A DNA stretch of 40,906 bases, taken from positions 1 to 40,906 of the IMG/VR virus record IMGVR_UViG_3300014720_000005; one strand, given 5' to 3'. The DNA is from a virus. Under the pieces are notes generated by a model, which ran no database searches, was not told the origin of the DNA, and worked only from the letters and a program-made list of their open reading frames with translations. This document shows, piece after piece, positions 1 through 40,906 of this stretch. Numbering within the stretch: the first letter of the stretch is position 1; every line of letters starts with the position of its first letter. A program made the translations under genes and the position numbers.

Positions 1-121
1 GCGCTGCGGCAGGCGTTCGAACGGCGCGGCTGTGGGCGAGCGTAGCGAGCCGAGCCCCCGCGCTGGGCGAAGCCCAGCTGCAAGGGGGCGTTCCGCTTCC
101 GTGGCTGTGGACGCGAGGCGA
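1..121. repeat. Left copy of 121-bp identical contig end
   Basis: These 121 bases are identical to the last 121 bases of the window (40786-40906). The match includes a stretch not shared with the nearby REP-like units, so it is not just two repeat copies. The simplest reading is an assembly overlap from a circular or terminally redundant molecule, with a unique length of 40,785 bp. It is probably not the phage terminal repeat, because it lies inside the hairpin repeat island between the first two early transcription units. Confidence 0.9.
24..104. repeat. REP-like hairpin unit, variant copy
   Basis: This is a shortened variant of the 98-bp unit at 40523-40718. It keeps the core hairpin gctgggc-gaa-gcccagc inside an outer gccccc/gggggc stem, but it lacks about 13 bases of the gagcgatagcgca segment. 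The same copy appears at the right end because of the contig overlap. It would be transcribed as structured RNA if reading from the promoter at 965-998 continues past 221. Confidence 0.75.
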
Positions 122-168
122 GCGAAGCGAGCCGAGCGGCGGGGTATTTTTGTGCAAACGCGAAAGCA

Positions 169-216
169 CCCCGCCTACCCTTACGGGCAAGCGGGGCGCG
201 GGGCGGCGATGATAGT
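169..216 (-). other. Hairpin plus CACTATCATC motif, repeat element copy 1
   Basis: A hairpin at 169-196 (ccccgc/gcgggg outer stem, loop around ttacg) is followed by the motif gatgatagtg, which reads CACTATCATC on the coding strand. A related element lies at 1131-1168: both share gcctaccc, a short GC-rich spacer and gatagt in the same order. The coding-strand motif resembles the CACTAT core of T7-class promoters. That is a resemblance only. Confidence 0.45.
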
Positions 217-220
217 GCGG

Positions 221-964
221 TCAGCCTACGGGTTTGGCTGCGATCTTCCTCGAGAGGATGTCCGCTGCCGAGCGCAGAAGGATTAGGGCGTTTTGGTCAT
301 CCTCCTTCGCCAGTCGTTGCGCGAGTTTCACCAACTGGTCAGCCTTTGCGACCGTGGTGGTTGTGCGTGCTTGTCGGGCTGCACACTCGGCGGGGGCTGC
401 TTTGATTGCATCTGCCCAAGCCGTGCTTCCAATCTTCGTACCCTTCTTGACTTTCGCCTTCATGACTGCCTCGGCGGCTACCGCTGGGTCCGAGGCTCTT
501 CCGATGTTGGCGAGCACGGAAGCCGTTACGCTTTGCCAACCGCGAGCATCTCCCGTTTCGGCAACTTGGTACGCTCCTTCGGCGGCAGACGCATACAACT
601 TTGCGCTAGCCTCCGTCATTCCGTTTCCGACCATTTGGGCGATACTCCAGACCCGAAAGGATGAAGCGGGCGCGGCGTCCTGGGCGGCAACGCGAGCCCA
701 AGTGTCCTCCGTGAGGCAAGCGACTAGCGAGCCGATGAGCGACACGGAACCTTCGACATACCGGCGGCAGGCGTCCGCGAGCGCAGCGAGAATCGTGGAA
801 TCCTGCTTTGCCTGCTGTGCCGCGACCTCCTCCTTGGATGGGGGAGCGGTAACGGTGGCTGACTGGGTGCGAATCTTCATAGCGTGTAACCTTTCATCGA
901 ACATCGGCGCCGTTTCGAGTCCTCGGCGGAGTGCTTTAGATGCCCTATCGGCTGCCGTGTTCAT
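221..964 (-). CDS. Early protein of unknown function, first gene after a host-type promoter
   Basis: This 247-residue protein is not recognised. It is Ala-rich and probably helical, with a Lys/Ala-rich C-terminal third and no signal peptide or membrane segment. A sigma-70-type promoter ends six bases before the ATG at 964, so the first base of the ATG is the expected +1 and the message could be leaderless. A second possible start at 880 (MKIRTQ) has AAAGG nine bases upstream. On the circular map it is the first gene of the early region, the position of T7 gene 0.3, where host-takeover or anti-defence proteins are encoded; that role is inference. Base composition is visibly richer in GC than the core genes. 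An antisense frame of the same length exists but has no promoter or ribosome site. Confidence 0.7.
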   Translation of the reverse strand: MNTAADRASKALRRGLETAPMFDERLHAMKIRTQSATVTAPPSKEEVAAQQAKQDSTILAALADACRRYVEGSVSLIGSLVACLTEDTWARVAAQDAAPASSFRVWSIAQMVGNGMTEASAKLYASAAEGAYQVAETGDARGWQSVTASVLANIGRASDPAVAAEAVMKAKVKKGTKIGSTAWADAIKAAPAECAARQARTTTTVAKADQLVKLAQRLAKEDDQNALILLRSAADILSRKIAAKPVG

Positions 965-998
965 GCGTGCATCGTAGCACGGTTTCGGGGTAAGTCAA
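965..998 (-). promoter_or_regulatory. Host sigma-70-type promoter for the 247-residue early gene
   Basis: On the minus strand, TTGACT (993-998) is followed by a 16-base spacer and TACGAT (971-976), with TG one base before the -10 (extended -10). The next seven bases place +1 at 964, the A of the ATG. Spacer length and geometry match the promoters at 40255-40282 and 38734-38761. Confidence 0.75.
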
Positions 999-1194: not shown

Positions 1195-1350
1195 GTGCCT
1201 AGCGGGTCGAGGGCGAGTCTGCGAAGCCCGAGACGATAGCGCAGACTGTGTGCGTTGTTGTTGCGTTGCGGGTGTGCTGCGCGGGGCAAGTGTGCGTGTC
1301 TCCATGCCAAGCCCCTGCGCTGAGCGAAGCGAAGCTGCAAAGGGGCGTAC
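1195..1350. repeat. Diverged REP-like copy
   Basis: The blocks gacgatagcgcag and, further on, agcccctgcgctgagcgaagc...gctgcaaaggggcg follow the order of the 98-bp unit at 40523-40718 with many substitutions. The outer stem is kept as gcccc/ggggc, so pairing is retained while the sequence drifts. Confidence 0.4.
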
Positions 1351-1537
1351 CTTCTGTTCGATGATGGACGAAAAAAAACGGGGAGGTACACACATTGGCA
1401 CTTGCCTCCGAAGCGGTTGCGCGAGGGTCTACCTGTTGTGTTCCACCCTGCGTACTCTGATGCGAGTTCCAGGCGGGAGGCTGTGTGCGACGAGCCCAGC
1501 AGGGCGAGGAGCCGCGAGTATTTTTCATTTTGCCACC

Positions 1538-1547
1538 GATGATAGTG
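1538..1547 (-). promoter_or_regulatory. CACTATCATC motif, possible phage promoter core
   Basis: The coding-strand 11-mer CACTATCATCG here is identical to the one at 207-217 and to one inside the exonuclease gene (about 26361-26371). CACTAT is a hallmark of many single-subunit phage polymerase promoters, but the initiating G expected just after it is absent, so the call is weak. Confidence 0.25.
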
Positions 1548-1598
1548 GACACGATTTGATGGTAGACCACGCGCGAATCCCTCAAGTGCAACCCGAAC

Positions 1599-1612
1599 CC
1601 CCCCATGGGGGG
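1599..1612. repeat. 14-bp perfect GC palindrome
   Basis: Six C, AT, six G. It lies in the gene-free junction, about 85 bases from a second perfect palindrome. Confidence 0.7.
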
Positions 1613-1674
1613 AGCCACGCTTGGCTTGGCAATATCAAACCACTTCATATTTTTCTTCCAAAACTACGGCTTCC

Positions 1675-2475: not shown

Positions 2476-2682
2476 TTAAATAAATTCATTTTTAACAGCT
2501 TCCAACAGTTCCTTAGGAATAGAGTTTTTAAGGATGTGCATAGAACGAGCCAAAGAAACAGCCTTCTTAACATCCTCCGTATTCTTTAAGTAAGCCTCAT
2601 AAGCAATAATGACATCACATGAATTAGTAAGAAGCTCTGAAGTAAAGTCAGCCCAATCTTCTATTTTTAAATTTAAATCCAT
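2476..2682 (-). CDS. Small acidic protein downstream of TerL
   Basis: This 68-residue, probably helical protein is not recognised. Its start overlaps the end of the large terminase gene by 10 bases, so translation is likely coupled. The sequence (KAVSLARSMHILKNSIPKEL) has an amphipathic helix and no membrane segment. The position corresponds to the T7 19.x genes, which are also small and poorly conserved. Confidence 0.65.
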   Translation of the reverse strand: MDLNLKIEDWADFTSELLTNSCDVIIAYEAYLKNTEDVKKAVSLARSMHILKNSIPKELLEAVKNEFI

Positions 2683-4325
2683 CTGTTGCCCTTTTTTTGT
2701 TTTTTGCCTACGGCAAACTCCATGAACCGCTCTAGCTCCAGGTCCAATAACTCTTCTTTCCGGTTGTCCATTTTGGTGCTGGCGTCTTGAGCCATGATAT
2801 CTACCCAGAAGCCAATAGCCATGCTTAGAACATCAATTCTATCGTCAAAGGATAAAGCTCCTTTAGTTTTCGTAATCCTGGACATCTGCCAAAATAGACT
2901 GTAGTGCAGGGACTTATCCATTGCTCGTTTCTTGGTTGATTCGTAGTCCTCCCGAATAACCGATACGTCAACAACCAACCTGTGTTGATTTAAAACAGGC
3001 TCTAAAGTATCTATAATACGGCGTTCTTTCTGGATGTTGCTTCTAATTTCTTCTATTGTGCAAGGATATGTTTTAAGTAAATAGGGTTTTAGAAGCTCCG
3101 AAAACATACCATCGCCGAAATTAGATTCAATAATTAACTTATTAACGGAAAATTTTTTGGCTGTTTCTACCAAAGAGGACATTGTTTTTTCCGAATAACC
3201 CCCCTCAAATCCTCCAGCAGCAAGCAGATATAGATAACCGTTAAGCATCTTAACCACAGCATAGCTGGTTTCATTGTCGCCACGACCGGACGGATCAATG
3301 GCCATGACCGCGCCCTCGTAAGGAATCCAGCTGCCTTGGATATCCATTGGACCATAATATCGATCTCCATTAAACCCAACACAAGGAACATCGCGGACAA
3401 TGTTATCAACATTTGCTGCCCAAATTAATTTTTCCGGTGCGTTGTCTGGATTAAGACCCAGAACAATAATATCACTAAGCTTAAGAGGATACCTATCTAT
3501 ATCACTAAGCGTAGAATCCAACATAAACTGCAAAGCAAACCCGGTTCTTCCGTAAGAGGCTTCGCGTTCTAATAACTCTATAGTTCCAAACCTCTTAGGA
3601 TCTGTAGGATCGCCTTCCACCCCCTCTAACAACAAAGGAGCCAAACGATCCCCAAACGCATTCTTTAGACGTGTATCTGGGTATCTAGACGGCCAAATCC
3701 TAGTCTTATACCCCTTTTCGTGAAGACTGTGGTAAATACTTTGCTCTGTCTGGGGGGTTCCCAGAAACAGAATTTCTCCTGCTGGTTTTAAGACGGCTTC
3801 AAACTCTGCGATACAAGACGATAGCTTTTCTCGCATAAGGAAGGTTGCTGAGTTGTTTAAACTCTCAACGTCATCTGCAATAATAAGATCCGCACGGCTT
3901 CCTGTAATCTGGCTAGTAATACCTTTCGAAACAACCGAGGGAGCCTGGGATGGCGGAGCAGGGCCTACATCAAATGCAATTTTAGAATTTCTTTGATTCT
4001 CCTTTGGCTTAAGATGTCTGCAAATAGGTATTTCGTTGATTAACCTTAGAGTAAACGTACTAAAATCATCAGCTCTTTGTTTAGAAGCAGATACAACAAG
4101 GATGTTAATAGACGGGTCGTGAAGCAGCCTAAATACTGCGTAAGCACTTGTTAACCAGCTTTTACCAACCCCGCGAAAAGCCTGCACCACCCGCCTTCTA
4201 GGACCTTTTTGGAGATAGCTGGCAATGTCTAACTGAACATCGGTAGGCTCAGGAAGCCCCAGGTGTTCCCAAGCTAAAAACACAAAGTTTCTAAAATCTT
4301 TAAGTTTTCGCTCTAACTCATTCAT
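2673..4325 (-). CDS. Terminase large subunit (T7 gp19-like)
   Basis: This is the DNA packaging motor, which combines ATPase and headful or end-cutting nuclease. In the 550 residues the ATPase has an atypical Walker A, FRGVGKSW (50-57), and Walker B LIIADDVES (147-155). The RNase H-like nuclease begins at MAIDPSGRGD near residue 345, where the Asp is the first metal ligand, and a second acidic motif (IIESNFGDG) follows. The length is close to T7 gp19 (586). The start overlaps the TerS stop as ATGA, which indicates coupled synthesis of both subunits. Confidence 0.95.
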   Translation of the reverse strand: MNELERKLKDFRNFVFLAWEHLGLPEPTDVQLDIASYLQKGPRRRVVQAFRGVGKSWLTSAYAVFRLLHDPSINILVVSASKQRADDFSTFTLRLINEIPICRHLKPKENQRNSKIAFDVGPAPPSQAPSVVSKGITSQITGSRADLIIADDVESLNNSATFLMREKLSSCIAEFEAVLKPAGEILFLGTPQTEQSIYHSLHEKGYKTRIWPSRYPDTRLKNAFGDRLAPLLLEGVEGDPTDPKRFGTIELLEREASYGRTGFALQFMLDSTLSDIDRYPLKLSDIIVLGLNPDNAPEKLIWAANVDNIVRDVPCVGFNGDRYYGPMDIQGSWIPYEGAVMAIDPSGRGDNETSYAVVKMLNGYLYLLAAGGFEGGYSEKTMSSLVETAKKFSVNKLIIESNFGDGMFSELLKPYLLKTYPCTIEEIRSNIQKERRIIDTLEPVLNQHRLVVDVSVIREDYESTKKRAMDKSLHYSLFWQMSRITKTKGALSFDDRIDVLSMAIGFWVDIMAQDASTKMDNRKEELLDLELERFMEFAVGKKQKKGNRWI

Positions 4326-7298: not shown

Positions 7299-9341
7299 TT
7301 AAATATCAAAAGAGACGGCTAAAGAACAGGTTTGGAAAGAGTTGGTTTGCAACCCAGGTCCTCCTCCCAGTTCAGTCATTGCAACCCCTTTAGCAGCAGT
7401 ATAAATATCTTCGTTATTACCGTTAGTCCAAAGATAATCGTAACCTGTGTATGTTCCGTCGGGCGGCGTTACACTACTGCCAACAACAAGAGTGTAAAGA
7501 CGCCTAAACCCCCCGTTAAGATAGATAGGCGTATTTGCTTGACTTAATGAGACAGTTACAACCCCCGTGTTTGACATTACTTTGCCACAAGTAGGCTTTA
7601 CGTCAAAATCGCCGTTTTCCATTGTCTGCATGTTATTGGGCAAGAAGTACCCCAAGTTTCCTTGCGGATTTTCAAAATGATTTACAATATCCAATACCGA
7701 ATGAGATTTAAATTGCCATGTAGTTCTATTGTTTGTAACCGCAATAAAATCTGCTTGCCCAAACAGCCTAAAATTGACCTCAGAAAATTGCTCCGCGGAA
7801 GGACTGGTACCCCATTTAGGAACCTTAACTCCTGCTTCAATGTCAACTTGTCCAAACGTTCCGTATTGGTCGTTGTTCATCATTTTGAGACTATAACTGT
7901 TCATTAACATAAGGGCTCTAGTGCTGTATAAAGTCCTGGGCCTGAAAACCGGACAAACATTAGGACTTCGCCGCACCAAACCTAATTCTTGAAAATAGTC
8001 TTGAGAGTTTCCTCCTGACGAATAGTCGCCCAAATATCTCCAAGGGGCTGCCGGGCTAATTCCCCCAGTCCCTCCCCCACCGGAAACGCAAGGACCTTGG
8101 ACAATAGTACCGCCGTTGCCTCCGTTAAGATACAGCCCATAAACCCAACCGTTTTGATAAAGCGCGTTGGCTGTTATAGAATTTGCGGTTTCATAATAAA
8201 AACTAACGCTAAATTTTCTACACCCTTCAGGAATTTGGATTCCGCTGTTCACGCTGGCATGAAGACCCTGGGAAAATCCTGGGGTAGCAACGATAGATTC
8301 ACTTATTTCTACATTAGACGCCCACGAATCTGTGAGAGTTTCTCCGCTTCCGATACTCCAAGTCCTATTTTGGCGAGCAACGCTTACAAAATTATTCCTA
8401 ATATCCGAAGGAGCCGTTACTTTTAATAAATTAGAGCAGGGGGCGTTTATGGGTTCAAAATCCGCTGCCTGGGCGCTTTCGGTTAAATTTCCAAATATAG
8501 TATTCGGTCCCGCATTATCAAAAATAAGAGCGCTAAGTTGACTGCTGTTGTTTGCGGTAAGTAAACTTAAACCAAACGTAGTACATGGCCTTTCTTGTAC
8601 GTCGCCGTGATCGGATTCAGGATTGCATAAAATTTTATTTCCGGAGACGTTTTGAATTTTACTATAAGTTACGGCATCGTTAGCAATCTTAGCATTAGTT
8701 ACAGCCGAGCTAGCTAATTTATCTGAGGTTACTGCCGAGGACGTAATTGTACGCTCGCTCACAGCTGAGTTGGCTAATTTAGGTTCTGTTACTGCCCCTG
8801 CCGCAATTGTTCGGGTGCTTACAGCTGAGTCGGCTAGTTTGGGTTCTGTTACCGCCGAAGCTGCAATTTTTAGGGCGCTTACAGCTGAGTCGGCTAGTTT
8901 GGGTTCTGTTACACAGCCGTCCGATAAATGAAAAGTTTCTACTTCTCCAGGCCCAAGAACTTGGCTCGATAAATCGCCAACCTCTTGGATAATGTGCAAA
9001 AGACCCTGTACGCTTTTATTTAAGTCCGCACCCGTTAAAATAGATCCATCATTAAAAACAACAATATTTCCTCTAAAATCAGATACTGTATTTGGAGTCT
9101 GTCTTACAATTGAAACAACTATACCGCTTGCGGGGGCAGTTACCAGTCTAATTTTGGGGTTAATGGTATTTAAATCAAGAAAAGTAAAATTTAGTTCCGG
9201 TTCCCCATCTAAAAATACCTTAATAAAACTTGTGCTTACATACCCATCAATTGCGGAAAACGAAAAGTCGGTTTGAGATCCGTTGGCTGTAAATTGTACA
9301 AAACTTAATGGGTCGTCGCTTAAAAGATCTTTAGTTGACAT
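7299..9341 (-). CDS. Tail fibre protein (T7 gp17-like N-terminus)
   Basis: This 680-residue receptor-binding fibre begins with the conserved virion-attachment domain of T7 tail fibres (VQFTANGSQTDFSFSAIDGY, about residues 15-34). About residues 140-230 hold a run of near-20-residue repeats built on AVTEPKLADSAVS, a typical trimeric fibre shaft. The C-terminal 400 residues are beta-rich with Gly/Asn loops and should carry receptor specificity. The gene follows the gp16-like gene, as in T7, and is longer than T7 gp17 (553). Confidence 0.9.
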   Translation of the reverse strand: MSTKDLLSDDPLSFVQFTANGSQTDFSFSAIDGYVSTSFIKVFLDGEPELNFTFLDLNTINPKIRLVTAPASGIVVSIVRQTPNTVSDFRGNIVVFNDGSILTGADLNKSVQGLLHIIQEVGDLSSQVLGPGEVETFHLSDGCVTEPKLADSAVSALKIAASAVTEPKLADSAVSTRTIAAGAVTEPKLANSAVSERTITSSAVTSDKLASSAVTNAKIANDAVTYSKIQNVSGNKILCNPESDHGDVQERPCTTFGLSLLTANNSSQLSALIFDNAGPNTIFGNLTESAQAADFEPINAPCSNLLKVTAPSDIRNNFVSVARQNRTWSIGSGETLTDSWASNVEISESIVATPGFSQGLHASVNSGIQIPEGCRKFSVSFYYETANSITANALYQNGWVYGLYLNGGNGGTIVQGPCVSGGGGTGGISPAAPWRYLGDYSSGGNSQDYFQELGLVRRSPNVCPVFRPRTLYSTRALMLMNSYSLKMMNNDQYGTFGQVDIEAGVKVPKWGTSPSAEQFSEVNFRLFGQADFIAVTNNRTTWQFKSHSVLDIVNHFENPQGNLGYFLPNNMQTMENGDFDVKPTCGKVMSNTGVVTVSLSQANTPIYLNGGFRRLYTLVVGSSVTPPDGTYTGYDYLWTNGNNEDIYTAAKGVAMTELGGGPGLQTNSFQTCSLAVSFDI
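8690..8915 (-). repeat. 60-bp in-frame repeats in tail fibre shaft
   Basis: The block acagctgagtcggctagttt recurs near 8761, 8821 and 8881 at exact 60-base steps, and more diverged copies continue towards 8690. Each encodes about 20 residues (AVTEPKLADSAVS plus a variable half). The two copies nearest the N-terminus are almost identical in DNA, which suggests recent expansion. Confidence 0.85.
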
Positions 9342-29631: not shown

Positions 29632-29704
29632 TGGGTCGAGGGGGACTTGAACCCCCAACCTACGGATTAAAAGTCCGCTACTCTACCAGTTGAGTTACCG
29701 ACCC
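29632..29704 (-). tRNA. tRNA-Lys (TTT)
   Basis: A 73-nt cloverleaf on the minus strand: 5' acceptor GGGTCGG pairs with TCGACCC, the anticodon loop ACTTTTAATC gives TTT, and the T-arm is GGGGGTTCAAGTCCCCC. The discriminator is A and no CCA is encoded. AAA codons are common in the AT-rich core genes, so it may support late translation in a host with higher GC. Confidence 0.95.
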
Positions 29705-29710
29705 TAGTTA

Positions 29711-29794
29711 TGGGGATGGTGGGACTTGAACCCACAAGGATTTTATTCCGGCAGATTTTAAGTCTACTGCGTTTGCCGATTTCGCCACAACCCC
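29711..29794 (-). tRNA. tRNA-Leu (TAA)
   Basis: An 84-nt tRNA with a long variable arm (class II). The anticodon loop CTTAAAA gives TAA, the T-arm is GTGGGTTCAAGTCCCAC, and no CCA is encoded. The acceptor has one mismatch (T5-T68). It lies six bases from the primase-helicase stop and six from tRNA-Lys. Phages of some marine hosts integrate at tRNA-Leu(TAA), but no integrase is present here. Confidence 0.93.
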
Positions 29795-33432: not shown

Positions 33433-35826
33433 CTAATTGAAATAGTAGTCTGAAGTCAAAACCTTAGTTACATCCAAAGCACCATACTTTGGAACATCGG
33501 GAAGCCTACCCGAAGAGGGCAGTAGTGTCAATGTGGATTCACGAAAATTTCTAAAAATTTCTTCCGAAAAAAGTTTCACCGTGGATTGCCGTACAGCCAA
33601 AGCAACCTTTTTGTGGTCGGGAGCCAAGCACATTAGTTGGTCGTGGACAGTTCCCAGGTGATTGATTCCAAATGCCTTACACGCAAGCACCGTTTCCCCA
33701 AGAAGCCCACCGAACCCGTCCAGGGAGTGGACAAAGTTGGCTGGGCCTCCATTGAGTGCCTTGCGAAGAGATTGAACACCGTTCTCAACCCGAAGAGATA
33801 AAATTTTAGCCTTGGCTCCAACTTTGGTTGAGACGGTTATGGGATCGTAGTTTTCATACCTCATGCGAACAGGAAAACCTAGAGGAGTATTCCAAAAAGG
33901 AGTTACATCATTTTCCACCATCGCTTTTACACATTCCCTAATAAACTTCATTCCTATTTGAGCCGAGCCCACAACATCCCCAATAGACTCCCAAATAGTA
34001 TTCCCTAGTAAACGGTTTAGTTGATATGTATTTATATTAGTTTGGTCTATATTATTCTTCTTTAATTTTTCTTCCAACCATTCTTTAGTGTAAGTAATAC
34101 AAGAGTGTTGGGTAAGACCATATGGTAAAGTCATTGTTTGTCTTTTGGTAGCGGTTCTATCTAGACCTAGCGACAATAAAAATCTAGCGTCTTCTGTATT
34201 TAAATGTTGCAGCCGCTGAATAACTTTATCGGCTACTGATTTATATGGGTCTGCTGGCGTTTCTGAAGGGAGGACGTTGGTAGCGACTGCGGCAACCTCA
34301 TCCTTCAACAACATAGAGTATATCTGGAGTCCTTGTGTTGTGGCGTCCATCCCGACTGGTAAATGCGTGACATATCCTGAACCGTTAGCCCACAAGGACG
34401 AGAGTTCTACACAAGCAGCGTAGAAAGCAAAGGGCTCATCTGCTTTTGTCCATTCCCTATGTCCCCAGGGATCTTGCGCTATTTTACAAATTAAATCTCT
34501 ATTCTCCTCAACCCAAGCAACTCTCTTTTTGAATGTTTGTTTATCTAAACCAAATTTATTGGCGGAATGAATATACAGGGGTAAAGCATCGTCGTCTGTT
34601 TTAATCGGCTTACCATCAGCAAATTCTAAAATTGCTTTTGCGTAGGAGATGCTTTGTGGATTCAAAAATAACGGTAGTGGGTAGCCCCTGCCCCTAAAGT
34701 CTAGTTGATGGGGAAACCAAATGCGGTTGTGTTCCGCCATCTTCTGGGCAACGAACAAACACTTTAGAGTCAATATTCTTTGGGACTCGTATGATTCGTT
34801 TTGGAAATGGGTTTTGGCGGCTGCCTTACGCCATTGCCGCCGAGCCTCTGGATTATCGTCGATGTCAATTGGTTTGGACGGGACAAGGTCGTTATTGCTG
34901 GGCGGGAGATTGTCAAAGGTAAAACCACCGTCCCACGATTCTTTTACCAAATTTAGTGTTTGTTTGTTTATTCTCCACGGGGTATTTTGAACAAAGTTTA
35001 CCGCTTCGTACACGACTGATGGTAGTGAAGATGATAGTGATTCTTGAAATTTTTTGTCTCTGGACTTGACCAGGGGTCTCGGGCGCCACTCCATAGATCC
35101 GTAGCCGCCATACCAGGGGTTGCTCCAACCAAGAGGCTTCTCGACCATTGGTAGGAATACAGGCTCTAGAGCCTCGTGGTATTCATGGCACTTGGTAACC
35201 CACTCGGTAATATCTTTGGACGGCTGTATAATACAGTATTTTCTTCCTCGCTCATTTACCTTCGTTCGTATTTCGATTATACCAGTATGTTCCGCCAACA
35301 TTTCGATGAGAAGTACGCCGACCGACACCGCCTCCCTTTTAGTCCACCTATAACTAATTAGGTCTACTGCTTTTGCAGCATCACGGAGAAACCTTCGCTT
35401 TAGTTTTTGTCCAACTCGTTTGAAGGTTTTGTTTTGGATTTTCCGAATAAAGTTTGGTTCTTTTTCGGACAGGGTCTGCATTAGGATTTCGTCCTCAACC
35501 GCCCTGCCTACTTCTATTGCTGTGCTTGTTAGCCTACGCTCTTTGGAAAGACAGTCTATGACAGTTTTGGAAGTGATGACAGCGATTTTTTTGTGGCATA
35601 GTTGCGAGAGCAACGGCAAACAAGTGTGCCTTCTTCCCGCACCCTGGTTCGCCGCGCACAACCAGTTTTCTACCGCTTTAGAAAGAATGTCCGTACTGTT
35701 GTTTAGCAGCGTCCTTCCTGGTATTGTATTACTTTCAGCCCCAATTTCTGTTGCCTTCAGTTTTTTCGAGGAATACCTTTGTTTACCTAGAACAACCATC
35801 TCCTGATTTAGTTTATCTTGGCGCAT
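33433..35826 (-). CDS. Single-subunit DNA-dependent RNA polymerase (T7 gp1-like)
   Basis: This is the phage polymerase that switches transcription to middle and late genes. The product is 797 residues (T7: 883). Conserved motifs are LDFRGRGYPLP (the DxxGR motif, about 375), GMDATTQGLQ (motif A, catalytic Asp about 494), RTATKRQTMTLPYG (motif B, Lys and Tyr about 562-569) and TVHDQLM (motif C, second catalytic Asp). Start chosen at ATG 35826. A GTG at 35865 lies inside the terminator stem and is rejected. There is no Shine-Dalgarno, and TATACT ends eight bases before the ATG, so the message may be leaderless. Confidence 0.97.
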   Translation of the reverse strand: MRQDKLNQEMVVLGKQRYSSKKLKATEIGAESNTIPGRTLLNNSTDILSKAVENWLCAANQGAGRRHTCLPLLSQLCHKKIAVITSKTVIDCLSKERRLTSTAIEVGRAVEDEILMQTLSEKEPNFIRKIQNKTFKRVGQKLKRRFLRDAAKAVDLISYRWTKREAVSVGVLLIEMLAEHTGIIEIRTKVNERGRKYCIIQPSKDITEWVTKCHEYHEALEPVFLPMVEKPLGWSNPWYGGYGSMEWRPRPLVKSRDKKFQESLSSSLPSVVYEAVNFVQNTPWRINKQTLNLVKESWDGGFTFDNLPPSNNDLVPSKPIDIDDNPEARRQWRKAAAKTHFQNESYESQRILTLKCLFVAQKMAEHNRIWFPHQLDFRGRGYPLPLFLNPQSISYAKAILEFADGKPIKTDDDALPLYIHSANKFGLDKQTFKKRVAWVEENRDLICKIAQDPWGHREWTKADEPFAFYAACVELSSLWANGSGYVTHLPVGMDATTQGLQIYSMLLKDEVAAVATNVLPSETPADPYKSVADKVIQRLQHLNTEDARFLLSLGLDRTATKRQTMTLPYGLTQHSCITYTKEWLEEKLKKNNIDQTNINTYQLNRLLGNTIWESIGDVVGSAQIGMKFIRECVKAMVENDVTPFWNTPLGFPVRMRYENYDPITVSTKVGAKAKILSLRVENGVQSLRKALNGGPANFVHSLDGFGGLLGETVLACKAFGINHLGTVHDQLMCLAPDHKKVALAVRQSTVKLFSEEIFRNFRESTLTLLPSSGRLPDVPKYGALDVTKVLTSDYYFN

Positions 35827-35833
35827 AAATACA

Positions 35834-35842
35834 AGTATACCA
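35834..35842 (-). promoter_or_regulatory. Extended -10 promoter for RNA polymerase, no leader
   Basis: TGGTATACT (minus strand) is an extended -10 located seven bases before the ATG at 35826, so transcription would begin at or within a base of the start codon. No -35 match is visible because the upstream bases are the T-run and stem of the terminator. Strength is unknown. Confidence 0.55.
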
Positions 35843-35846
35843 ACAT

Positions 35847-35883
35847 AAAAAAACCCCCGCACCACCTTTCGGTAGCACGGGGG
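35847..35883 (-). terminator. Strong terminator upstream of RNA polymerase
   Basis: The minus-strand stem CCCCCGTGCTACC-GAAA-GGTGGTGCGGGGG has 13 pairs (35854-35883) with a GAAA tetraloop, followed by TTTTTTTATG. It ends the early operon and separates it from the RNA polymerase gene. In T7 the early terminator lies after the polymerase gene. Confidence 0.93.
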
Positions 35884-38768: not shown

Positions 38769-39584
38769 TCAAAGATTTATCGGCAGTTCTTCCATCCTAA
38801 TTGTGTGGAACAAGGATGTTGGTATCTTTCCCTTTCCTCGCAAAAGTACGATATGACCTTGGGGGTCTAGGAATCGTGCGTCTGAAATGTCGCCGTCCAA
38901 TACTGGATAATTGCCGCCAAAAATATCAACCCTCCCCTTGGCTAGACACTTCTCCTTCACTTCGTTCGAAACAACGACTGCTACATTCACTCCCCGTTTT
39001 AGGGCAGCGAAACATAGCCGTGCGTTGTGTCCGCTGTAAGAAAAAGTGTAGTGAATATCTTTCCATCCGACTAGGCGACTGAACACTTTGGTGTAGTCGT
39101 ATCGGATAATGGGGTAGGTATGTAACTCGGGAGCAAAGTCTTCCCAAGGAAGATCAGATAAGACGTTGCACCGTAGGGCAAGCCTCCATGATCCGTGCTT
39201 TCTAACGGCTTTATATAACTCTTGGTTTAGTTTCAGAAAGAACCTATAGGGGTTTTCGAACAGCAGTTTTGTTTTCAAAATTCGCGCTGCTCTTGTCCTT
39301 GGCATTCTACCCCTACCCGCAACCACGCCCAGGCAGGCTTCTTCGCAGAGTTTGCTCCTGTTCGGACATACTTGATATCCCGAAGATCCCGCAGGCGCAA
39401 GAGTTATCCCGTAAATGGGTATACTAGACTTTGCTAGTTTTGGATTTGCGTTGGGTGGGGTCAGTATTGTCTGCGTACCCTTCAGTTCGGAGGGATCGAA
39501 CACCTGTCCGTGCCAATCTATATAGGCAGATCGTGCGGCTTCCCGTAAAGGTTTCCAACCCCAGTTTTCTTTGGTTGGATTCAT
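38769..39584 (-). CDS. GP88-family protein with Cys cluster
   Basis: This 271-residue protein belongs to the family of mycobacteriophage gene product 88. It contains ITLAPAGSSGYQVCPNRSKL and then CEEACLGVVAGRGRM, a C-x6-C-x3-C cluster (near residue 75) that could hold a metal or iron-sulfur cluster. The next helix carries conserved ILKTKLLFENPYRF. The function of the family is unknown. Start chosen at ATG 39584, which overlaps the previous stop (ATGA) and has GGGAGG upstream. It ends just before the second early promoter. Confidence 0.85.
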   Translation of the reverse strand: MNPTKENWGWKPLREAARSAYIDWHGQVFDPSELKGTQTILTPPNANPKLAKSSIPIYGITLAPAGSSGYQVCPNRSKLCEEACLGVVAGRGRMPRTRAARILKTKLLFENPYRFFLKLNQELYKAVRKHGSWRLALRCNVLSDLPWEDFAPELHTYPIIRYDYTKVFSRLVGWKDIHYTFSYSGHNARLCFAALKRGVNVAVVVSNEVKEKCLAKGRVDIFGGNYPVLDGDISDARFLDPQGHIVLLRGKGKIPTSLFHTIRMEELPINL

Positions 39585-39940
39585 TTCGGAGCCCCTCCCG
39601 CTAGTGCCTGGACTGCCCACTCCCGACCCACGACCATGCGACCACAGGGGAAAGTCTTTATGATTACTATTCCCTCGTACTTCAACAAGTCCAATGCCTG
39701 CTGTTCCGTAAGGAACTTGTTAGGTCTCAAGCCACACAACGCCGCCGCAGACCACGCACTACACCCCTCAAAAAAGTTGAGTCGAACTACATTGACATCC
39801 CAAAGCCCATCAAGGTTTTCCTCTCGTTCTACTCGCAGAATATATTCCACGATTGCAAAGGCGCCTTCGGTAGACCAGTTGCTTCTCGCATCGGAGAGAA
39901 GGTCGCTAACCATTACTAACTTGTCTATTTCCTGTTTCAT
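39581..39940 (-). CDS. 119-residue early protein
   Basis: The product starts MKQEIDKLVMVSDLLSDARS and is alpha/beta with a Trp/Ala-rich centre (CSAWSAAALCGLRPNKFL). AAAGGAG lies six bases before the ATG. Its stop overlaps the GP88 start. I do not recognise a family. Confidence 0.7.
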   Translation of the reverse strand: MKQEIDKLVMVSDLLSDARSNWSTEGAFAIVEYILRVEREENLDGLWDVNVVRLNFFEGCSAWSAAALCGLRPNKFLTEQQALDLLKYEGIVIIKTFPCGRMVVGREWAVQALAGGAPK

Positions 39941-40248: not shown

Positions 40249-40282
40249 GCGCCTAATGTACCACAAAAAACTTTTATGTCAA
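40249..40282 (-). promoter_or_regulatory. First early sigma-70-type promoter
   Basis: Minus strand TTGACA (40277-40282, consensus), a 16-base spacer rich in T, and TACATT (40255-40260) with TGG just before it. Six bases later comes ATG at 40248. This is the best host promoter in the window and drives the early operon. Confidence 0.88.
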
Positions 40283-40469
40283 TGGAAAGAAAAAAATATG
40301 TTGTAAAGTTGCTGTTTTTTTTTGGCGGCGGGTTTGGTGGGTTGGTAAGCGCGGTTATTGGTTTTAGTCGTGGCGTTGTTGTTCTACTGCGTTGGTATTT
40401 GATTTTGTATTTGGTTTTGTATTTGACGGCGGTTGGTACAGGTCGAGTGATGGTAGTGAGTTCCACCAG
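40283..40469 (-). other. G-poor non-coding stretch upstream of early promoter
   Basis: On the minus strand this is rich in A and C with few G, and has 12-base tandem copies near 40396-40430 (CAAATACAAAAC-like). It also contains a variant of the CACTATCATC motif at 40449-40458. The open frame through it reads as low-complexity protein. Seen from the promoter at 965-998, it would be the unstructured end of a long leader. Confidence 0.45.
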
Positions 40470-40501
40470 GGCTGTGTGGCTGTGTGGCTGTGTGGCTGTT
40501 G
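40470..40501. repeat. 8-bp tandem repeat ggctgtgt
   Basis: Three exact units followed by ggctgttg, next to the hairpin island. Confidence 0.75.
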
Positions 40502-40505
40502 CGCG

Positions 40506-40521
40506 GCCCCGCTTGCGGGGC
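40506..40521. other. Perfect hairpin gccccgc-tt-gcggggc
   Basis: Seven GC pairs around a two-base spacer; in RNA the loop would open to about four bases. It borders the first 98-bp unit. Confidence 0.65.
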
Positions 40522-40522
40522 T

Positions 40523-40718
40523 GCGCGGCTGTGGGCGAGCGGAGCGATAGCGCAGCGAGCCGAGCCCCCGCGCTGGGCGAAGCCCAGCTGCAAGGGGGCG
40601 TTCCGTTGCGCGGCATAGCCGCGCGGCTGTGGGCGAGCGGAGCGATAGCGCAGCGAGCCGAGCCCCCGCGCTGGGCGAAGCCCAGCTGCAAGGGGGCGTT
40701 CCGTTGCGCGGCATAGCC
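40523..40718. repeat. Two identical 98-bp REP-like units in tandem
   Basis: Units at 40523-40620 and 40621-40718 are identical base for base, and a partial third begins at 40719. Each unit contains a hairpin gctgggc-gaa-gcccagc within an outer gccccc/gggggc stem, and the end of each unit forms gcgcggc-ata-gccgcgc with the start of the next. The repeats look like bacterial extragenic palindromes, but here they sit in a phage early region. Copy number may be collapsed by assembly. Confidence 0.85.
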
Positions 40719-40785
40719 GCGCGGCTGTGGGTGGGCGCGGTGTTTGCGAACGGCTTTCGAACGGCGTGGCTGTTGTTTGCGTTCG

Positions 40786-40906
40786 GCGCTGCGGCAGGCG
40801 TTCGAACGGCGCGGCTGTGGGCGAGCGTAGCGAGCCGAGCCCCCGCGCTGGGCGAAGCCCAGCTGCAAGGGGGCGTTCCGCTTCCGTGGCTGTGGACGCG
40901 AGGCGA
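40786..40906. repeat. Right copy of 121-bp identical contig end, containing REP-like variant
   Basis: Identical to 1-121. It contains the variant REP-like unit at 40809-40889. It marks circular closure of the assembly more likely than the virion terminal repeat. Confidence 0.9.

Follow-up and report, generated by a model that had tools for sequence, protein, structure and literature searches.

A repeat island near the predicted left end of a T7-like phage genome: a hairpin-bearing module that probably expanded in one lineage within a hypervariable spacer

The present study analyzes a repeat island in the early region of an uncultured T7-like phage, in a window that comprises the entire IMG/VR record of 40,906 nt. 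The patterns detected make it probable, with considerable doubt left over, that the island arose when a module bearing hairpins expanded in tandem, in this lineage only, within a hypervariable spacer near the left end. The island is ordinary in kind, and its GC-rich units are what is unusual. The wider value lies mostly in a corrected map: the genome ends of this phage and of about 20 related uncultured T7-like phages are predictable from a short signature common to T7, T3 and gh-1, which separates the packaging site from the hypervariable early spacers.

The two ends of the record overlap by exactly 121 nt (1-121 equals 40786-40906), and once the circle is closed the island (221..1 plus 40785..40283) extends over 724 nt without a credible gene, from the stop of a 247-residue early gene to the second early promoter. 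The original prediction of about 0.8 kb of gene-free repeats, with two identical 98-bp units, a shortened unit, an 8-bp array and hairpins, was thus well founded.

40523..40731: 98-bp unit in 2.1 perfect tandem copies
40470..40499: 8-bp unit GGCTGTGT in 3.8 perfect copies
about 40806..40887: shortened repeat unit, identical to 21-102

Perfect hairpins within the island are GCTGGGCTTCGCCCAGC (three times), GCGCGGCTATGCCGCGC (twice) and GCCCCGCAAGCGGGGC. Its ORFs were considered as genes and rejected; the non-coding reading holds because none of those tested matched a Pfam or PHROGs family and because 98 is not a multiple of 3. It had been suggested that phages rarely keep so much non-coding DNA, but at this end of the genome it is normal, the first annotated gene lying at 925 in T7 and at 901 in T3.

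Judged from its predicted terminase (2673-4325), tail proteins, DNA polymerase and RNA polymerase (33433-35865), the phage is a T7-like podovirus. The minus strand carries all main genes, and this one-strand arrangement, with a T7-type terminase and a single-subunit RNA polymerase (phrog_38, E 1e-103; phrog_414, E 1e-201), is that of the Autographiviridae. Placement of the island in the early region of a T7-like phage was therefore right, given these two genes and the sigma70-like promoters at the 247-residue gene and at 40282. Elsewhere in the window a tail fibre gene holds a 60-bp in-frame tandem repeat (3.1 copies, 8728-8912), and there are two tRNA genes, Lys-TTT and Leu-TAA, at 29632-29794; a 2014 paper stated that tRNA genes had been found in no T7-like phage (PMC4283147). 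The early features that frame the island are as follows.

971..998, minus strand: the first early gene's sigma70-like promoter, TTGACT-16-TACGAT; distance to the predicted left end about 640 bp
221..964, minus strand: first early gene, 247 aa, Ala/Lys-rich, in the T7 gene 0.3 position; its start is perhaps an internal ATG near 880
208..217, minus strand: CACTATCATC motif, candidate phage-polymerase promoter core
150..205, minus strand: strong hairpin with a weak T tract, downstream of the first early gene (-36.2 kcal/mol, z -4.92, 0/200 shuffles)
40255..40282, minus strand: sigma70-like promoter TTGACA-16-TACATT, the second of the early promoters; distance to the predicted end about 2.14 kb

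The first promoter and its gene are comparable to the arrangement in T7, where promoters A1-A3 lie at 498-750 and gene 0.3 at 925, and by that analogy the site of the 247-residue gene is a candidate anti-defence position. The protein itself showed remote similarity only: no relative was found in viral contigs by pattern search or among phage isolates, no Pfam or PHROG family matched, and the fold, predicted all-helical with low confidence, had no significant PDB match. ORFs of 215-308 aa, alike in composition and several of them homologous to each other, occupy the same position in relatives. The hairpin at 205-150 is probably the terminator of the first early gene; a simple terminator scan did not flag it.

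The spacer would thus separate a first early unit (promoter 998-971, the 247-residue gene, probable terminator 205-150) from the second promoter at 40282-40255. We propose that a GC-rich module with hairpins underwent tandem duplication here. The two identical 98-bp copies would be recent, and slippage or recombination favoured by the hairpins is the probable route. The repeats would be tolerated because they lie after a terminator and before a promoter, where extra DNA may do little harm, and selection on them would be weak or absent.

Comparison with relatives is consistent with such a spacer. Relatives keep a gene-free interval of about 0.4-0.7 kb after the first early ORF, containing short repeats (22 bp in L019, 7 bp in L010, 12 bp in L011) of unrelated sequence, terminator-like hairpins with long T tracts and, in several, CACTATC clusters; several also have sigma70-like sequences, read by eye, at the place of the second promoter. 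From these shared signals and unrelated repeats it follows that conservation extends to the interval but not to what fills it. A search for relatives anchored on the early gene at 38769-39620 returned the same species only. Small hairpins like TCTAGNNNCTAGA, different in sequence in each phage, precede early genes in L007, L011 and L018 and are possible processing sites.

The CACTATC clusters raise the alternative that the island serves replication or transcription, with phage-polymerase promoters and structured or AT-rich DNA forming a left-end secondary origin comparable to the T7 phiOL region. CACTATCATC is possibly the core of a phage RNA polymerase promoter, as its distribution suggests: it occurs four times on the phage (minus) strand, at 217, 1547, 26371 and 35039, and never on the other. 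The island stands between the copy at 217 and a variant at 40451, and in several relatives motif clusters followed by an AT-rich stretch lie in the same interval. The 98-bp units, however, belong to no shared feature, and L028 has the motif inverted, the complete relative G009 lacks it, and one copy lies within the polymerase gene at 35039, so that we regard a secondary origin as unlikely. In another relative, G002, CACTATCACC/ATC is likewise confined to one strand.

Another possibility is that a REP-like or mobile hairpin element was captured from a host and then increased in number within the phage. Modular GC-rich hairpins would be consistent with such an origin in a genome of about 44% GC, where the roughly 2 kb around the join rise to 0.58-0.78, as would the recurrence of a 21-nt sub-motif, GGCGAGCGNAGCGAGCCGAGC, in intergenic DNA of six other virus contigs (L118-L123; for example L122 5169-5189). 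But two unit-derived patterns had no match in the GTDB genome collection, and the 98-bp unit was found in neither phage isolates nor plasmids, with one same-species contig its sole occurrence in viral contigs; copies are limited to the left end, and no mobilising gene lies nearby. Hosts outside the collection are possible sources, but the capture of host REP elements envisaged in the original prediction gains no support, and we consider it improbable. Neither a T7-type terminase nor a T7-type polymerase was found in the six GGCGAGCGNAGCGAGCCGAGC contigs. In these the sub-motif stands shortly upstream of sigma70-like promoter sequences and in most follows a long inverted repeat.

The same prediction had proposed selection on RNA or DNA structure and had named lack of conservation in relatives as half of what would speak against it; the unit is indeed not conserved. 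Five hairpins with arms of at least 7 occur in the closed island against 0.45 expected (0/200 shuffles), and one in a single unit against 0.1 (21/200); the excess arises because the unit was copied. Folding of the 98-bp unit is near that of its shuffles (z -0.88) and not exceptional for its GC content, while the array folds slightly better than its shuffles (z -1.64) and the 48-nt hairpin core somewhat better (z -2.68, 6/200). A further, diverged copy of that core lies apart from the array:

1306..1351: diverged hairpin-core copy, 46 nt, 39/46 identical, score 57 against 27 for the best of 200 shuffles

On the strength of this alignment the segment is a true relative of the hairpin core. It sits just inside the predicted terminal repeat. 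A diverged copy had been reported at 1195-1350; its existence stands, but its real extent is the 46 nt at 1306-1351. The idea that pairing was kept while sequence drifted did not survive closer comparison: the outer stem is retained, with one C-G to U-A change, but two of seven inner pairs are broken, so that three stem pairs vary, one with a compensating change and two with loss of pairing. The diverged copy folds as RNA little better than its shuffles (z -1.0; z +0.93 for the 1195-1350 stretch). Selection on RNA structure finds no backing in conservation or in net covariation, and the two distinct sequences that exist cannot show covariation either way. The only described RNA families detected in the window were the tRNAs.

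A structured early RNA acting as a decoy, an anti-defence factor or a processing site would accord with the stable hairpin core and with the RNase III stem-loops that the T3 and gh-1 annotations place in their early regions. Against this, the whole unit and the array fold near expectation, the island lies behind a probable terminator, the unit has no relatives, and broken pairs outnumber the compensated one. Such a role is unsupported and very unlikely; a functional structure of some kind in the island is conceivable, although nothing found here argues for one. Some observations do sit less comfortably with expansion of a module in a tolerant spacer. Three copies with differing flanks share an identical 48-nt core; the diverged relative of that core is right beside the predicted terminal repeat, a location not obviously random; and the island has a GC content of 0.61, against 0.40-0.51 in the same interval of the six relatives read. 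A further reading, which we think decidedly unlikely, is that the hairpin module has a function at the left end as DNA or RNA, for example in slowing or steering the host polymerase in transcription-coupled genome entry, and that in this lineage it multiplied to either side of the first early gene.

Location of the genome end bears on whether the island could be a packaging site, as had been suggested. Relatives carry a conserved box A (GTTTTGG..AAAAATCTGA..GGTTTRATAT) behind their last late gene (homologue of 1842-2201); in about 20 of them there follow a palindrome CCCCC..GGGGG, 41-43 nt after the AAAAATCTGA start, and a variable GC-rich stretch, after which many carry box B (CTCCCTCCCCGTTT). 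Box A plus palindrome was present in 20 of the 67 terL loci examined, this window included. In T7, T3 and gh-1 box A (AAAAATNTGA) begins exactly 17 nt ahead of the terminal repeat; the palindrome follows the box A start by 42 nt in T7 and 43 nt in gh-1, and T3 has box A only. The corresponding features here are:

1600..1654, minus strand: terminus signature, in which box A AAAAATATGAAGTGGTTTGATAT precedes palindrome CCCCCCATGGGGGG; the sole match in the window, with none in 100 shuffles
1385-1376, minus strand: box B CTCCCCGTTT
1380..1637, minus strand: predicted terminal repeat, about 258 bp, from box A at 1654 and box B; the inner boundary is less certain

By the 17-nt rule from the three reference phages, the left genome end is predicted at about 1637, and with box B taken as the likely inner boundary the terminal repeat would be about 258 bp, similar in size to the 160 bp in T7, 231 bp in T3 and 216 bp in gh-1; that of JG068, determined experimentally, is 216 bp (PMC3765740). 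Relative to the predicted end, eight of 30 related contigs stop in the range -7 to +207 nt and none at 208-584, as expected if a terminal repeat disturbs assembly. The palindrome was not seen at the record ends of the isolates ProddE and HTVC120P, so not every member of the family bears the signature. The end predicted in this way places the island 1.4-2.1 kb into the genome. Packaging is accordingly mapped by its signal to about 1654-1380 and not to the island, which lacks box A and the palindrome; the idea from synteny that the island is itself the terminal repeat was rejected on the same signature, calibrated on the reference phages. An exact box A search for close relatives returned L005 only, which is 86% identical over 2.7 kb of late genes, aligned up to 1812; beyond that point there is no alignment in the GC-rich part except box A and the palindrome. 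An ORF at 1199-1648 (149 aa) was considered as a late gene, but the conserved DNA element box A accounts for its start, MKWFDI, and it is probably no gene. A 16-bp direct repeat, TACAAAACAGTCCTTA, with copies about 100 bp apart at 1675-1690 and 1774-1789, was noted by eye on the right-end side, immediately beyond the predicted terminal repeat.

It could also be argued that the island is an assembly artefact or chimera, as the contig-end overlap of exactly 121 nt falls within the repeat region and resembles an assembler word length, and how many near-identical units there are is uncertain, since at 111 nt the longest exact repeat is barely shorter than that overlap. Yet the overlap includes non-repeat sequence on either side of the shortened unit, and contig G001 (IMGVR 3300013132_000326), 99.99% identical over 20 kb, begins within the array at 40640 and continues into the early genes, so that the join of repeat to early genes has been seen twice. 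A chimeric join to host DNA, entertained in the original prediction, is therefore unlikely on the early side; the join on the opposite side is represented by this single record. Overall we judge an artefact extremely improbable.

Several known systems resemble the island in part. RNase III sites, annotated in T3 and gh-1, are likewise hairpins and belong to the early region of phages of this kind, but they lie in transcribed leaders, whereas the island, between a probable terminator and the next promoter, would on present evidence be outside the main transcripts. Bacterial palindromic repeats of the REP/BIME type are GC-rich hairpin units, intergenic and partly tandem, and the island shares each of these traits; its units, however, are restricted to one end of one phage, with no host copy found and no associated transposase seen. 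T7 has short repeat arrays of the CCTAAAG family beside its terminal repeat, named SRL and SRR, with 13-bp-period arrays at 174-340. The T7 arrays are built of 7-bp words with a 13-bp period and those here of 98-bp GC-rich hairpin modules with no sequence relation to them. Placement differs as well, for between the terminal repeat and the first early promoters, the SRL/SRR-type position, there is only the diverged 46-nt copy, the main array lying behind the first early gene. In both phages, nonetheless, short repeats occupy non-coding DNA by the left end, and here one copy adjoins the predicted terminal repeat.
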